Shown here piece after piece: positions 5,789 to 15,282 of a stretch of 54,306 nucleotides of DNA. The stretch is from positions 1-54,306 of IMG/VR virus record IMGVR_UViG_3300017760_002390. One strand, 5' to 3'. Both the position numbers and the translations under genes were made by a program. The notes beneath the pieces were generated by a model, which did not search any database, was not told the origin of the DNA, and saw only the letters and a list, made by a program, of their open reading frames with translations. The stretch is from a virus. The first letter of the stretch is position 1. Every line of letters begins with the position of its first letter.

Positions 5789-8700
5789 TAGCGGCACCTA
5801 TTTTACTATAAAAGTCATTCCATTTATCAGGTCGGTCACCCATTTCTCCTGTTTCTGTACTATATGGTTTTAACCAAGTTTTGTCTTTTCCACCGAAGTC
5901 ATAATGTATACCTTGTGATGCTAATGGATGTTGTCCTATGTGTGCAAATTCACAACTCACATTTATTACCTTTGGTAACTGAAACCCATCTGTTATTTCC
6001 CAAGTAGATTGGTCCTCTACTTCAACACTAAGACCACTTAAATATCCTGGAACTTCATTGTACATATCACCTATTGTTAAGTTTATAAATGGTGATTCCA
6101 TTCGTTTACCACCAGCCGATTGTGGATTCCAATGAGGATAGGTTAAACCTACAAGATAATTTAATTTTTCCCACAATATCGGTAATTCTTGTCGTGAAGT
6201 TGGTGCAACTATAAAATTGAAACTTAATGCCCTATCAACTCCTTGATAAACATGAACATTATCAGGTCTACCAATGTATCTTTCCGATGACCACTCAGGT
6301 GAAAGTGTTTCACTTATTCCACTAAGTGTTGCTCTAAATATAATATATTTTTGATTTACCATATCATAAAATTTAAATTTTACAAAATCAGGTTGAGCTG
6401 AATCTTCTCCGTAAGGTGTCATATTAATTTTATCTTGAAGATCACCATTATAACTTGTAACTTTATCATCAGCCATTGCTGCTGGTTTTATCTTACCCAT
6501 CAATTGTTCATCGTATACCGCCATAACACCAGGTTGTCCAGGATTACCTAACCTATAAACTAATTTATTTTCGGATTTCCTTTCTTCGGATATTTTTTCA
6601 AATAAAGCTTTACGGCGTGAATCTTCTTCATCCGTTTCTCCACCACTTAACCATTGTTGATTATATCTTTTTGCACTACCTTCTCCCAAATCCCCATAAC
6701 TCAATGTTTTGTATCTCTTTAATGCTTCTTTGGTACCAGTCGGTGAGTCTTGAATATCTTCGTTATTACTTTTCTTAGTAACAGAAGTTGCTGGAACACT
6801 AATTACCGCTGGTTTGTCATTTATAGCAACATCTGGATTTTGTTCTATACCAGGTGGTGCATTATCATCTTGAGTTATCTTTGTCTTGACTACGGTTGGA
6901 ATTTCTTGTTTTTCACCATCAATATCAACTTTTAAATTTTCAAATTGAGAACCATCAGGTGGTCTATTTACCTCTACTTGTTTTGGTTGAATTAGTCCAG
7001 CCTGAGTACCTTTTTTGGTAGGTTCACTTCTTACATTTCTCTTATCGGGTACTTGTTCTGTTTTGGACACCATAGTTAATCCACCAACTGAATCTCCGAC
7101 ATCTAAATCTGACCAATCGTAAACTCCTGTTTCTGGATCACCATCACCCGTACCTGGTATTTTACCCCAATATCCTTTACTATCTGAATAAGATATGTTA
7201 CCATATCGTTTTGAACCTGCAGGTCCATATTTATTTCCAACAAACTTCATACCTTCTACCGATGTACCTACGAGATGGGTGGTAGACCAAGTAAAATCTT
7301 TATAATCAGAAAGTTGTACTTTTTTATTTCTAATTTCTCCTGTTCGAGTCGTCAAATTGACAGACAAAGAACGAATATTTTTTGCTGTGGTAGGTGAGTC
7401 TAAATTATTATATGGTAGACTAAATTCAAGTTGTGGTTCTGAATCATCATTTATAGTTAATCGAGATTCAAGTGAATAAGTATTATCTTTATCATATAAA
7501 TCACTTCTCCACCTCCGTCCTCTTTTTATTCTAATACGAGTTTTACTATTCTCTATCATGTATCCATTAAGGCTCAATGTATCTCGACCACCAATTGATA
7601 CAACTGGTCCTTGACCACTAAACGAATGAAAGTATCTCTTTTTATATATTGCGAAATCGCCGAGTTGAATTGTTCCCTTTTGAAGTCTTTCTTCTCTTGT
7701 ACTCAATACACCTAATTTATCTTGAATTTTATCTGGTATCTCAATTGGAGCATAAGCATTAGACCTATCGTATAAATCACCTGTATAAACCCCTTCCTTT
7801 GCCAATCTTAGTTCTGAAGGATAATTCTCAGATAATGGATTATATATTAATTGTTGTGTAAAGTCAAGTTGTCCAACCTTATCAGTTGGAGTCAATCGGT
7901 TATGAATCGGATTTAACGGATTACCAATATTTACAAAATTAACATTTCTTAAAACTTCAACTTTATTGGTGTCTTTATCTACACCAAAATTACTATTAGT
8001 ATTACTATTACCAAAATAAGGACTATCAATATCGTCTGAATTACCTTCAAAAATTTCAGGTTTGATTACTGCATCTGTAATTGCTGCTGATGGATAACCC
8101 ACATTAGTACCAGCCTGTCTGATACCTTCTTCGGTAATGAACATTTCCGTGAGTGGTGAACCAGCATATCTACTAGCCAATATACCTGATTTATATCCAG
8201 CTTCAGGATTTCTTGCTGGAATAATTGGTGTTCCATCTGTCGTGGTGTATCGTTTATTTCTATTGTACTTATCAATTCCAACTATATTTCTTGAAAATGC
8301 GTTTATATTTCCACTTCCACCTGCAGTTAAATCAAATCCTATTTCAGGTAGAGCTCCGAATGATACCTTACCACCAGCTCCTGGTACCATAGCCGTCACA
8401 TGGGCCAATGTAACTCGTCTAGCAGTTTGAAATGCTATCTTACCACCTTGTAATGCAGTCTTTGGATCCGTTAAGGCGTTTCCATATCCAGTAAGTATTG
8501 ATTCTTCTCCACCACTACCAAGTGCATCTTCATAAGTTCCACCATCAAGATGTCTGTCCATATGAACGATTGGTGCTATTGAACCTAATGATAATGGATT
8601 ATAAACTCTTGTTTCAGGTCTTGGATTTAATAATTGTAATCCATATTGTTTAGCAACAAAGAATATTCCTTTTGTTGTAAGTGCAAATTTACCAAGTCTA

Positions 8701-10064: not shown

Positions 10065-13000
10065 TTATGCTGTTAATATAGAATCTGTAAAATCACCAGT
10101 ATTTCTTTTAATTCCGTGTAAGTTTTCGGCCAGAGTACCACCATCACCTAACAATACTATTAATTCGTCTAATTTTTTATTAGTACTATCGAGTTTTAGT
10201 TCAACAGGATTTTCAGTAGTTTCAGCAGTAGATGATTCTCCGCCAGTAACCAATCCTCCAAGTGCCCCAACTGCTCCTAATGCCAACAATACAGGTAGTG
10301 CTGGTATTAATGCAAGTGCTCCAAGTGCCATAGCTCCCATACTCACTCCTAATGCAGTAAATGCTCCAGCCAATAGGAATATAGAACTGGCCATTGGTGC
10401 TAAGGTCTGAATTATCGGTACAAAGGAACTGAATCCTTGTGCCAACATATCAAAACCCTTACCTATTGCCTGTATGGCGACTCCTAATACGAGTAGTGCG
10501 GCTGCCATTACCAACATAGCTCCAGCTCCTGCGATTATTGCAAGTGCTCCAACTCCACTCATCATTATTGCTCCAATAGCGGCCAATGTTAGAGTTAGTG
10601 CAAGTAATGCAACTCCTGCCTTACCCATATCACTCCAACTTACTTTTGAAAATTCTTGTAATGCTTTTGCTGTAACGAATAAAGCGGCTGATATAATTAA
10701 TAGTGCCGCTGCTCCACCGAGTGCTTTCTTTGCGTCAAATTTTTCGAACATACCACCAAGTGGACCTCCACCACCTTTTCCGCGTTGAGGAATAGCTGGT
10801 TTTTTATTAGCCGTAACTTTCGTTCCAGGTTTTCCACCCGTTGCCGTTTGGCCTCCACCACCAAGCATTCCACCCATACCTTTGAGTTTTCCACCCATTG
10901 AAAAAATCATATCTTTTGTACTTTTAAGAAAACCCATGATTCCACCACCCATTAGGTTTGTCCTAAATAATAAAGCTGCACCTGCGGCAAACATAATAAC
11001 ATCACCCAATCCAACACCAAGTACATTTGCTTTATTTAAAAATTGTATGAATTCGGAAAAAAGAGCAAGTATCCCAATTATCGTACCTCCCAATATTATA
11101 AATGGTGAAAGAAATGCTAAAGCTAATGGTATGGCTGCTTTAAAGATACCCATGAAACTTGTAAAAACTTTACCCATTTGTTCCATAGCTCCTGTTATTA
11201 AATCTCGTCTTTTTCTCTCTCCCTCTGTCATACTATTTAGTTTATCTTGATTTGTAACCATCTTACCTAATTCAGATACACTAACACCAAATGCATCTGC
11301 TAAAGATTTTCTCTGTACGACATTTAATCTTTCAAAATCTGCTGCTGTTCCAATCTGTTTGGTAATCTCTTTTTGCATACCTTCCAAATTACCATTGAGT
11401 GCCATCTCTCTTGCTTTATCAGTATTAATACTTCTACCGAGTAACATACTTGCTTCCATTTGAGAATTTATGGATGATTCAAAATCTAACAAGCTATCAG
11501 CTATCTTTTCAACTGAAGCCATATCTAAACCAAGTTGTCTTGCTGCTACAGCGGCCTTGAATACATTATCTCCACCTTCTCCAGCAAATTTAGCAAATGC
11601 CTCACTATTACTTGCCACATCATTCATAATTGCTGCGGGTGCAACTCCACCAGCTTGTGATAGTGCCGCTACTGAACCTAATTGTGAATCGAAAGCTTCT
11701 TGACTTGATACACCAACTGCCCCCATTTGAGCTCTAAGTATTCCTAAGTTTTCACCACTAATACCATATAATCCATTTAATCTGGCCATTGATTTTACAT
11801 TCTCGTTGGTAAGTTGTCCTATCCCACCCATATTATCCATAATACCTTGAGCTCCCGCCTTCACATCTTCTGCACTTACACCAAGAAACTTCATTTCCAT
11901 TGCTGTGGTGTTAAGGGTATTTTGTAATCCAGCGGCCTCTGTGGCTGTTATTCCAAACTCCTTACGAGTTTCCAACATACCACCATAGAACATTTCTGCT
12001 GCTTTCTTTGCTATCATTAAGATTGCAACTACTGCCAGTGCAGGTCCTAACATTCCACCCATAGCACCATTTATACCACCAAAGATTTTCTTCATACTTT
12101 CGAAACCTTCTCCCATCTTATCAAACATAATTTGAAATTGACCTCGTGTTACCCTTCCGTTTTTATCCGTCTGATTGAACATCTTAGTCATAGCCAATCC
12201 AAAATTCATAGGATTCTTTTTATCAAGAGAATTAGTTATATAACTTTTCATTGTGTCACTAAAATGTTCTGTTGCATCTCCCACACCAACCAACTCTGAT
12301 GCAAGTTTACCTGCCTTGGTCGATTCCAATAAACTTTTCGCCTTATTCATAGGATCCAGTATTAATTCTGCTGCTGCAGCTGTTTGTGCATTATTTATCC
12401 TCTGTTCATTTGCTATTTTTACATTTTGTTTAGCTACTGCATTTGACTCTCTTTGTGATTTTGTAATTTGTTGTATGGCCGTAGTAATTCCTGTAGTATC
12501 TTTACCGTACTTCTTTGCCAATTCAAGCTGTTTTTGTAAATCTGGTAACAATCTTTGTTTTACATAATCACCTTGTCTCCGTACCAATTCTTCTTGTTTT
12601 TCTGCCTGTTTGGTTAAATCAGAAAATGAATCCTTTCCCATATCATCATATTGGTTTGCTAACTGCTGTGATAAATCTAAATTATCACTCTGATGACTCA
12701 CCATATCTTGTAAATCTAATCCAGCATTTTGAAGTGCTTGTGGCATATCATCACTTAGTAAACTATTGGCACCTTTAATTCTTTCGTTTAATAGTATGTA
12801 TTGTTTACCAAAATTATGAGTGGTTTCCAAAAACCCATGAAGAGCATTTCCTTGTTTGAAATATTCTTTGGTTCTTGAGAGGATAGTTTCATTACCCTTT
12901 TTTTCCATTTTGAAAAACTTTTTACTTAAATCTAACTTTAATTGGTCTAAGGTCATTTGCTCCATTGCGGATTCAAGTGCTTCCTTATCACCAGTAGATT

Positions 13001-13166
13001 TTATTTTATTAAGTTCTGCTTGTTTTCTTTTTAGTGTTTCTAATCTCTGAACATTTTTCTGATTGACTTTTTCGCCCATGTCGGCAATAATCTTTTCTTC
13101 TTTTTTGATTTTCGCCTTTAGCTCTAATAATTCTTTAGCTAATTTTACATTTTCACGGTCTGCCAT
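10065..13166 (-). CDS. Tail tape measure protein
   Basis: The 1033-residue protein has the composition of a tape measure, the ruler inside the tail tube that sets tail length and is ejected ahead of DNA. The first 300 residues are almost all charged helix and coiled coil. Hydrophobic segments follow at about residues 370-395 (ALAVVAILMIAKKAAEMFY) and 680-705 (IPLALAFLSPFIILGG), and a dense Ala/Gly/Leu hydrophobic cluster fills about residues 815-990. A Gly-rich, basic linker at about 760-810 separates the last two. Length, hydrophobic layout and position just downstream of the gp26/chaperone genes and upstream of baseplate genes all agree. It plays the role of T4 gp29, though sequence identity is not visible by eye. 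Confidence 0.88.
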   Translation of the reverse strand: MADRENVKLAKELLELKAKIKKEEKIIADMGEKVNQKNVQRLETLKRKQAELNKIKSTGDKEALESAMEQMTLDQLKLDLSKKFFKMEKKGNETILSRTKEYFKQGNALHGFLETTHNFGKQYILLNERIKGANSLLSDDMPQALQNAGLDLQDMVSHQSDNLDLSQQLANQYDDMGKDSFSDLTKQAEKQEELVRRQGDYVKQRLLPDLQKQLELAKKYGKDTTGITTAIQQITKSQRESNAVAKQNVKIANEQRINNAQTAAAAELILDPMNKAKSLLESTKAGKLASELVGVGDATEHFSDTMKSYITNSLDKKNPMNFGLAMTKMFNQTDKNGRVTRGQFQIMFDKMGEGFESMKKIFGGINGAMGGMLGPALAVVAILMIAKKAAEMFYGGMLETRKEFGITATEAAGLQNTLNTTAMEMKFLGVSAEDVKAGAQGIMDNMGGIGQLTNENVKSMARLNGLYGISGENLGILRAQMGAVGVSSQEAFDSQLGSVAALSQAGGVAPAAIMNDVASNSEAFAKFAGEGGDNVFKAAVAARQLGLDMASVEKIADSLLDFESSINSQMEASMLLGRSINTDKAREMALNGNLEGMQKEITKQIGTAADFERLNVVQRKSLADAFGVSVSELGKMVTNQDKLNSMTEGERKRRDLITGAMEQMGKVFTSFMGIFKAAIPLALAFLSPFIILGGTIIGILALFSEFIQFLNKANVLGVGLGDVIMFAAGAALLFRTNLMGGGIMGFLKSTKDMIFSMGGKLKGMGGMLGGGGQTATGGKPGTKVTANKKPAIPQRGKGGGGPLGGMFEKFDAKKALGGAAALLIISAALFVTAKALQEFSKVSWSDMGKAGVALLALTLTLAAIGAIMMSGVGALAIIAGAGAMLVMAAALLVLGVAIQAIGKGFDMLAQGFSSFVPIIQTLAPMASSIFLLAGAFTALGVSMGAMALGALALIPALPVLLALGAVGALGGLVTGGESSTAETTENPVELKLDSTNKKLDELIVLLGDGGTLAENLHGIKRNTGDFTDSILTA

Positions 13167-13170
13167 TATA

Positions 13171-13389
13171 TTACTTTATGGTTACTTTTCTACCTTTGGT
13201 ATGCTTTTTGAACACCTTTTCAAAATCTTTAATTGCATTATCAGCCTCTTTTGCTGCCTTTTTCAATCGTGGATTATCATCGAGTGCACTAGCAACTCTA
13301 TTGAATCTACCCTTCATTATATTATGCATAATTTTTCCGAAGATATTTTCTTGTAATTGTTCTTCTGTTAATGGTTTTGATGAAGCCAT
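13171..13389 (-). CDS. Small basic helical protein before the tape measure
   Basis: This 72-residue protein starts MASSKPLTEEQLQENIFGKI and is mostly charged helix, with basic ends (KGRKVTIK at the C-terminus). A good site AAAGGAG lies 7 bases before its ATG, and it ends 4 bases before the tape measure start. It has no recognised family. Its position between the tail-chaperone-like pair and the tape measure suggests a tail assembly factor. Confidence 0.72.
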   Translation of the reverse strand: MASSKPLTEEQLQENIFGKIMHNIMKGRFNRVASALDDNPRLKKAAKEADNAIKDFEKVFKKHTKGRKVTIK

Positions 13390-13480: not shown

Positions 13481-13720
13481 TTATCCTCTGCTGATACCAG
13501 GTCGTGAAATACCTGAAGATTTTTTACCTTGTTTATCATATGCCGCTTTTTCTTCTTTGTAAAACTGAGATGCCTTTTGAATGTAAAATCGGCGCAGATA
13601 GGTTGGCATGTTGTACACTTCTGTGAAATTAAATCCCCCCTTTCCGTGAAAACAGAGTGAGAAGATTTGGTCGTGTATCGCGGGCTTATCTTCTGCCCGC
13701 AGGCCAAAAAAACTCAACAT
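13481..13720 (-). CDS. Baseplate hub assembly / tail chaperone-like small protein
   Basis: This 79-residue protein contains GKGGFNFTEVYNMPTYLRR and ends in GISRPGISRG, a layout I recall for short gp26/gp51-associated proteins of marine T4-like phages. Its ATG (13720-13718) lies inside the end of the gp26-like gene, in the +1 frame, with a 35-base overlap. No good ribosome binding site precedes it; CCCATTAG is all that is visible. A T7 run and a GC hairpin in the overlap suggest that it may be made mainly as a C-terminal extension of the gp26-like protein by frameshifting, as in the G/GT tail chaperones of other phages. It sits upstream of the tape measure, the classic chaperone position. Confidence 0.78.
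   Translation of the reverse strand: MLSFFGLRAEDKPAIHDQIFSLCFHGKGGFNFTEVYNMPTYLRRFYIQKASQFYKEEKAAYDKQGKKSSGISRPGISRG
13680..13712 (-). promoter_or_regulatory. Putative programmed ribosomal frameshift signal (slippery T7 plus hairpin)
   Basis: On the coding strand GAG is followed by seven T (13712-13706), a 5-base spacer GGCCT, then GCGGGC (13700-13695), a 9-base loop and GCCCGC (13685-13680): a perfect six-pair GC stem in an AT-rich genome. The stop codon TAA of the gp26-like frame lies in the loop. A +1 (or -2) shift on the T run would join the gp26-like frame to the 79-residue frame. Inference from the arrangement; the direction differs from the commoner -1 shift. Confidence 0.6.
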
Positions 13721-14465
13721 CTAATGGGATATCCATAGTCGTATCTTCACCAGTAGTATCGCTCGTGAAGGTAAATGACATATCAACATCAGGTGTTATT
13801 TCGGTAAGATGCTCTCTAAGTGCTAATGAATCTCTTGATAACAATTCGTTATCTACAAATTCAACTATCCTCTTAGTAGAATTATCCCCATTGACACTCA
13901 AGACTGCCTTTTTCAATCTTGTAGTAATCTCTGAAGTAATTCCAGAATCTTTCTGAAATTTCTTTAGTGCCTTTAATTCGGCCTCTATTTCTTTTTCTTC
14001 CTTGTGGGTTAAAAGACGAAATGTGATTTTTGTTTTAGATGCAGGTAATTCAAAATCAAACTCATTTTTACCACCCTTGAAAAGTTTGGTATTGATTTCT
14101 TTATCCTTGATTAAGGTTAAATCAAAAGTTTCTTTTTGTTTATCACCCGTAGATGGATCTGTAAGTTGAACTGAATAGTCCTTACCATACCCAAGTACTC
14201 TTGTTGCAATCATAATTGCATTCTTATCACCTAATAATAAATCATCAAGTGAAACGTTATCATCTATAATAACTGATTCCAACAACTTATCCAAAACCAC
14301 TCCTTTTTGAATAAGATTTCGTGAGGTTAAAATATCTTCTTCTTTTGCGGTCATGTACTTTAACTCAATAGTTCCACCTGCCAGTGGTGAATCTTTTGGA
14401 TATAGTAAGCCTTTAGAAGGTAAATCAACTACCTCTGTTGGAAACCGGCGTTTTTCTTCTGCCAT
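13686..14465 (-). CDS. Baseplate hub subunit, T4 gp26-like (T4_baseplate family)
   Basis: The 259-residue protein has the family's opening: FPTEVVDLPSKGLLYP (residues 8-23), then ELKYMTAKEEDILTSRNL (about 33-50) and LDKLLES. This corresponds to the T4 baseplate family that includes gp26. T4 gp26 takes part in baseplate hub assembly. The C-terminal half is helical and charged, ending FFWPAGRR at a TAA. The end overlaps the 79-residue gene at a probable frameshift site. Together the two behave like the two-form tail assembly chaperones found before tape measure genes in other phages. An AGAGGAG site precedes ATG 14465. Confidence 0.85.
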   Translation of the reverse strand: MAEEKRRFPTEVVDLPSKGLLYPKDSPLAGGTIELKYMTAKEEDILTSRNLIQKGVVLDKLLESVIIDDNVSLDDLLLGDKNAIMIATRVLGYGKDYSVQLTDPSTGDKQKETFDLTLIKDKEINTKLFKGGKNEFDFELPASKTKITFRLLTHKEEKEIEAELKALKKFQKDSGITSEITTRLKKAVLSVNGDNSTKRIVEFVDNELLSRDSLALREHLTEITPDVDMSFTFTSDTTGEDTTMDIPLDVEFFWPAGRR

Positions 14466-14790: not shown

Positions 14791-15282
14791 TTAGAATTGT
14801 AGGATAGCGTAATCGTATCTGAGTGTTAGGGTTATATCAACTGGATCAGTTGTATTTGCCCAATCTAAATCACCAAATGTAGCGTTAGTAATAAACGCAC
14901 CTTTTAGTGTCCACTCCTCTACTTTATCACCTACTGGTCCTAAAACATTAAAAGTTATATCTTTTTTGTAAAAATCTGAGTACCCATCTCTACCAGTAAC
15001 AGACTCATGTGATAAACGAACCCATTCCATAACGGCTTGTGCTGCTGATGGAACAACAGGATCGTATAAACTAATTTCTAATTCTTCCCAAGCTCCCTTA
15101 CCTTTAATGTATCTCTTAACATTAATGTGGTCAAGTTCGATTGTTTCAAAGGCTATTGTCGGTCTGTTAGCTGTCTTTATAAGATAAGCTGGTATACCCT
15201 CGATGTACATAATGTACCGATTTTTTGTTTTTGGTTCAAACGGTGTGAACATTATCTCACTCGGATCTAATAAGTCTGGCAT
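14791..15282 (-). CDS. Tail tube protein (gp19-like)
   Basis: The 163-residue length equals T4 gp19, whose rings form the inner tube. Visible family features are NRYIMYIEGIPAYLIKTA near the N-terminus, FETIELDHINVKRYIKGKGAW in the middle, ISLYDPVVPSAAQAVMEW, and the C-terminal strands around GAFITNATFGDLDW and ITLTLRYDYA. It follows the sheath gene, from which it is separated by a terminator and two promoter-like elements, so it can be made at a different level. A GGAG site precedes ATG 15282. Confidence 0.92.
   Translation of the reverse strand: MPDLLDPSEIMFTPFEPKTKNRYIMYIEGIPAYLIKTANRPTIAFETIELDHINVKRYIKGKGAWEELEISLYDPVVPSAAQAVMEWVRLSHESVTGRDGYSDFYKKDITFNVLGPVGDKVEEWTLKGAFITNATFGDLDWANTTDPVDITLTLRYDYAILQF

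Follow-up and report, generated by a model that had tools for sequence, protein, structure and literature searches.

The comparison of related junctions indicates that the gp26-like gene of the virus record IMGVR_UViG_3300017760_002390 very probably carries a +1 programmed ribosomal frameshift site. The whole stretch of 54,306 nucleotides was analysed and is referred to as the window. The comparative evidence agrees with the original prediction, made from the window alone, of a frameshift at a T run in the +1 direction. By this shift a short and a long tail assembly chaperone would be produced, a function which we consider likely for the two products in the window phage.

Slip site and gene neighbourhood

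The gp26-like frame ends with the codons GAG TTT TTT TGG CCT GCG GGC AGA AGA TAA, and the frame following it, ORF2, is shifted by +1 and comprises 79 amino acids when counted from its ATG. Both frames share 35 nt (13686-13720), as given in the original prediction. The layout described there (seven T, five bases and a six-pair stem with the stop codon in its loop) is exact as well and belongs to the minus strand, which had not been named. On this strand the T run (13712-13706) is followed by GGCCT and the first stem arm, and the nine-base loop AGAAGATAA (13694-13686), which contains the gp26 stop codon, separates this arm from the second one. The AT-rich window holds 27 T7 runs, 7 on the minus and 20 on the plus strand. 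Within 62,775 nt of related gp26 genes no T7 was found outside the slip site. Table 1 gives an overview of the features.

Table 1 Features of the frameshift region and the neighbouring genes in the window
Feature	Position	Strand	Remarks
Tail tube protein gene, upstream	14791..15282	-	phrog_4542 E 7.7e-25
gp26-like short chaperone (TAC-N), predicted	13686..14465	-	259 aa, ends ...DVEFFWPAGRR*; PF12322, phrog_150, strong SD
T7 slip site (putative)	13706..13712	-	0-frame TTT TTT TGG; P-site TTT (T4-T6) would re-pair with TTT (T5-T7)
0-frame A-site codon TGG (Trp)	13704..13706	-	205 relatives compared
ORF2, +1 frame, predicted C-terminal extension of the long form (TAC-NC)	13481..13720	-	part used after slip 13708-13484
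Hairpin 5' arm GCGGGC	13695..13700	-	sequence
gp26 0-frame stop TAA, inside hairpin loop	13686..13688	-	sequence
Hairpin 3' arm GCCCGC	13680..13685	-	compensatory changes in relatives at pairs 3, 5, 6
72-aa ORF between ORF2 and tape measure gene	13171..13389	-	no significant family
Tape measure protein gene, downstream	10065..13166	-	1033 aa; phrog_4372 E 1.4e-6

Most ribosomes would read GAG TTT TTT TGG CCT and continue to TAA, yielding the 259-aa gp26-like short chaperone. In a presumed minority the peptidyl-tRNA-Phe on the second UUU, with UGG awaiting in the A site, would move one base forward onto UUU. The shifted ribosomes would read on GGC CTG CGG and produce a 327-aa fusion of gp26 and ORF2, in which ...DVEFF is joined to GLRAEDK.... 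The tryptic junction peptide predicted for this fusion is EHLTEITPDVDMSFTFTSDTTGEDTTMDIPLDVEFFGLR, and the junction FFGLRAEDK, which had been proposed for detection by mass spectrometry, is supported by the comparative evidence as the probable one.

The gp26-like protein matches PF12322 (E 1.9e-8) and phrog_150 (E 6.6e-12), the latter being matched by all 44 scanned members of the gp26 family, and its gene is preceded by a strong Shine-Dalgarno (SD) sequence (duplex -9.0). ORF2 showed a weak match to phrog_634 (E 0.2). The gene order tube - gp26 - ORF2 - tape measure is also found in the phages immuto, Mel-JY01 and SP-15. Two properties of G/GT-type chaperone genes are thereby found in the window: the overlapping ORF pair lies between the tube and tape measure genes, and the first protein is homologous to a known tail assembly chaperone, as seen from PF12322 and phrog_150. 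The comparative evidence also bears out the link between gp26-type proteins and the chaperone group that had been suggested from the window alone. Both forms would cover the tape measure protein and bring in the tube protein; the genes of these two proteins lie a short way downstream and upstream, respectively.

An AlphaFold model of the gp26-like protein alone (pLDDT 89) had no significant match in the PDB, where the HK97 tail assembly chaperone 2ob9 ranked second with E 1.7. In a library of viral models it matched gp26-type models, e.g. that of SP-15 (E 1.8e-19). Sequence searches against solved structures gave no match for the fusion or for T4 gp51.

Conservation and direction of the shift

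In all of the best 80 gp26 relatives from viral contigs (51-85% amino acid identity) the gp26 stop codon is closely preceded by the T run, intact or altered at one base, and in the same 80 a long open +1 frame follows the run. Four annotated phages and the window itself bring the number of parsed junctions to 85; in each of them the slip is located just 5' of the gp26 stop and the +1 frame is open. Two out-of-sample tests gave the same result. Scans with divergent family members yielded 122 evaluable new junctions, all of which share the layout (one further contig was truncated), and slip and open +1 frame are repeated at 7 of 7 junctions in contigs binned with bacterial genomes. In total, the T run, whose conservation in relatives the original prediction had called for, is kept along with the open +1 frame at 214 relative junctions. 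A slip close to the 3' end of the first ORF is thus conserved across divergent relatives, as is typical of G/GT-type genes. The distant Firmicute phages SP-15, LIS04 and GXN1 have an identical +1 layout; with SP-15 gp26 as query against the viral contigs no match other than SP-15 itself was obtained.

The conserved domain of ORF2, FGLxPxYRxxLHxQIFxLxxxGxGGFTxxxVYNMPIxLRxFY, begins at the slip (FGL). An ordinary overlapping gene, starting at the ATG at 13720 or at a near-cognate codon and translationally coupled to gp26, would be suggested by the in-frame ATG that the window shares with the relatives closest to it (L001-L004). This ATG, however, has a weak SD sequence in the window (-3.1 vs. 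a gene median of -5.8), the conserved protein block starts only at the slip, and no ATG, GTG or TTG precedes the domain at 88 of about 207 viral/phage junctions (37/85 and 51/123). Clustering at 70% identity left 15 of 35 clusters without any of these codons ahead of the domain and 25 of 35 without ATG, and one relative (L017) has none of them anywhere in the ORF2 frame. Since the start codon is missing at so many junctions, independent initiation is not the general mechanism, and we regard an ordinary overlapping gene as very unlikely. Synthesis as part of a fusion is required in the start-less relatives, while in the window itself initiation could still occur at the ATG with the weak SD sequence. 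Judged from these comparisons, ORF2 is coding and often unable to start alone.

For the direction of the shift, 205 aligned junctions were compared. The P-site codon is UUU at 197 and CUU at 8 of them, followed by U or rarely by C. The A-site codon is TGG in 176 of the 205 relatives and TAC or TAT in most others, and CC comes next. With TTT making up 78% of the Phe codons in gp26 genes, the evidence from codon choice is modest (p 0.004 and 0.002 by cluster). The canonical -1 arrangement, a heptamer X XXY YYZ with an ORF in the -1 frame, is absent: the 0-frame is GAG TTT TTT TGG and ORF2 lies in +1.

Variants of the slip that keep ORF2 are TTT CTT TGG (8 junctions), TTC TTT TGG or TTC TTT TAC (2) and TTC TTT CGT (GXN1). 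A shift by -2 would lead to the same final frame with an extra Phe, it would re-pair perfectly on T7 as well, and -2 frameshifts are known for Mu-type tail genes. The variants, however, re-pair in +1 and mismatch in -2, and ORF2 is nevertheless retained, so that a -2 shift appears highly improbable. Slippage of RNA polymerase on the T run, giving mRNAs shortened or lengthened by one base, would be conceivable at a homopolymer of seven within an AT-rich gene, yet the interrupted runs TTTCTTT, TTCTTTT and TTTTTTC still keep the ORF2 frame; we consider this possibility even more improbable. Because of the variants CTT T, TTC TTT T and TTT C, a +1 slip by the P-site tRNA is favoured over both, with the movement of the tRNA presumed to be as outlined above.

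Elements flanking the slip site

As had been expected for a GC stem in the AT-rich window, its occurrence by chance is improbable: among control windows taken from gp26 genes, only 0.4% have a six-pair stem in the same register and 0.7% a hairpin as strong as that of the window. The 81-nt region around the site has a folding z of -1.9. The original prediction had placed emphasis on the stem and had asked for its conservation too. This did not hold beyond a few subclades, the stem in the register of the window being complete at 18 of 205 junctions. That the stem is indispensable for the shift might be argued from the compensatory GC-CG and CG-UA changes at stem pairs 3, 5 and 6 (18 relatives), and from a 7-bp GGGCCTA/TAGGCCC stem that another subclade has nearby. 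Nevertheless, a universal downstream structure is absent; most relatives have no stem at the window-register or subclade position, and downstream folding over 121 non-redundant junctions was not above control (p 0.37). Because the stem is conserved only in a few subclades it does not appear to be essential, and an essential role is regarded as unlikely. The hairpin may rather act as a lineage-specific, optional stimulator or pause element.

Upstream of the slip a strong synonymous bias was observed, for which the overlap with ORF2 does not account. It concerns GAG (74 vs. 19 expected), GGG (66 vs. 9) and AAC (50 vs. 15). Folding upstream of the slip exceeds that after synonymous resampling and exceeds dinucleotide shuffles only modestly. 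Furthermore, 69% of the non-redundant +1 junctions vs. 6.6% of the controls have an SD-like element between -39 and -19. It occurs at 6 of 23 junctions with a strong downstream stem vs. 77 of 98 others (Fisher p 3.6e-6), and the two elements tend toward mutual exclusion across relatives. Of the two, only the stem is present in the window. In relatives such as L009, L034 and L231 the region from -39 to -1 has a GC content of 49% vs. 32% and a purine-rich SD-like element. An Rfam scan gave no real match, and no tRNA genes were found in the window.

T4 gp26/gp51, -1 relatives and other chaperone systems

T4 gp26 and gp51 are paralogues, since both belong to PF12322 and match each other in BLASTP (2e-6). 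T4 gp51 carries an extra C-terminal domain, to which the ORF2 of related phages with a -1 layout is matched by profile (E 1.5e-6). All 16 members of this gp51-C family of -1 phages match phrog_634, and the ORF2 family of the window matches the gp51-C family in a profile comparison (E 2.3e-6). Compared directly as a single sequence, ORF2 had no significant match to the T4 gp51 C-terminus (E 0.28). Via the profiles of the -1 family, ORF2 appears to be distantly related to the gp51 C-terminal extension.

The -1 group includes cyanophages, a Pelagibacter phage, KVP40, and Aeromonas, Stenotrophomonas, Desulfovibrio and Agrobacterium phages. A heptamer T TTT TTC in -1 phase together with a gp51-C-like -1 ORF was found at 89 of 93 loci, and the slip codon is TTC in 37 of 37 non-redundant -1 loci vs. 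11 expected. Cyanophage-type loci (L095-L178) have an SD-like element at -15 to -6, a spacing which resembles that of dnaX. The -1 pairs resemble the window group in slipping at the corresponding FF, a few codons ahead of where gp26 terminates, and in the downstream domain family shared with ORF2; they differ from it in the T TTT TTC heptamer, in this SD-like element and in the -1 phase, whereas the window group shifts by +1. In Salmonella phage Det7 (L184) and Vibrio phage D494 (L187) the site is reduced to ATT TTC or CTT TTC while the -1 ORF is still kept, possibly by a single-tRNA slip. In another -1 phage (L146:1501-2391) gp26 and the gp51-like domain form one continuous frame with SFWLGMAH at the junction, which reflects either a fusion that arose naturally or an error of one base in the sequence; a mixed alignment around this locus was misaligned and was left out.

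T4 itself shares PF12322 with the window in its short (gp26) and long (gp51) protein, and the extra C-terminal domain of the long form resembles ORF2 through the cyanophage family. T4, however, has two separate genes on opposite strands, whereas the window has a single gene with a probable +1 shift. T4 gene 26 (L086:3803-4429) ends with KEFFELL* (TTC TTT GAG) at the slip position and looks like a site that decayed after gene duplication.

Among other known systems, lambda G/GT and further tail chaperone frameshifts likewise have two frames that overlap in the interval from the tube gene to the tape measure gene and give short and long products; the short product of the window would correspond to gpG and the 327-aa fusion to gpGT. 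In contrast to the window, these systems shift by -1 and their proteins are unrelated or very distant. The GTTTTT site of Vandenendeviridae (PMC12846349) is alike in its two-product layout and unlike in its -1 direction and in its proteins, which are unrelated or very distant too. In phage 0305phi8-36, an earlier proposal of a chaperonin encoded by two genes assigned the short and the long chaperone to the paralogous genes gp143/gp144 (PMC2147016); this is the kind of solution seen in T4, and no frameshift is involved.

With prfB (RF2) the window group shares a P-site CUU or UUU followed by U, which re-pairs onto UUU in +1. The two differ in the A site of CUU UGA, a stop codon in prfB but the sense codon UGG or UAC in the window group, and in the SD sequence three nucleotides upstream, since the window has no slip-adjacent SD. 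PMC10885494 describes CUU_U as the slip codon of prfB and ranks UUU and CCC next in slipperiness in the assay concerned.

In a review from 2016, G-T frameshifting was described as conserved among long-tailed phages 'except T4' (PMC5009743). According to papers citing it, Vladimirov 2022 identified tail assembly chaperone genes of T4-like phages with a mechanism other than frameshifting. Of that work, PMC10885494 mentions that some T4-like phages have a short chaperone gene and a longer fused gene, and PMC12846349 mentions polyT -1 signals in T4-like TAC-N genes. By the homology described here, the short and fused genes of PMC10885494 probably correspond to gp26 and gp51. In the literature on gp26/gp51 or tail chaperone frameshifts, including Vladimirov 2022 as represented by its citing papers, no report of a +1 shift was found for this family. 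Short/long chaperone pairs are already known, and the +1 route in a T4-related family would be a new version of them.

The bacterial-genome contigs with relatives are mostly from Bacteroidota (Winogradskyella, Flavobacteriales, Saprospiraceae, Sphingobacteriales). The Flavobacterium host of phage immuto, whose slip is TTT CTT TGG, agrees with this, and from these relatives we infer that the window phage is Bacteroidota-associated. In the public record of immuto, ORF2 (L082:6738-6961) is unannotated and a small 'hypothetical protein' (6851-6961) lies inside the region.

Tentatively, we propose that the frameshift has changed direction, between -1 and +1, among the homologous members of a single chaperone family, and that in T4 two genes took its place. 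The +1 signal would be a bacterial one, UUU_U(GG or AC)_CC, with a sense codon in the A site and with stimulators that can replace one another. The stimulator would be a hairpin 3' of the slip, as seen in the window, or else a purine-rich SD-like element and/or small hairpin 5' of it; across relatives, the downstream hairpin tends not to occur together with the SD-like element. The finding corrects the annotation of what would be the C-terminal half of the long chaperone, which is unannotated in the immuto record and annotated as a hypothetical gene in Mel-JY01. A large, apparently Bacteroidota-associated T4-related group and a group of Firmicute phages would use a +1 shift where their cyanophage-type relatives use -1. 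With hundreds of junctions, the +1 and -1 relatives may serve as a natural experiment on how the direction of ribosomal shifts is determined.
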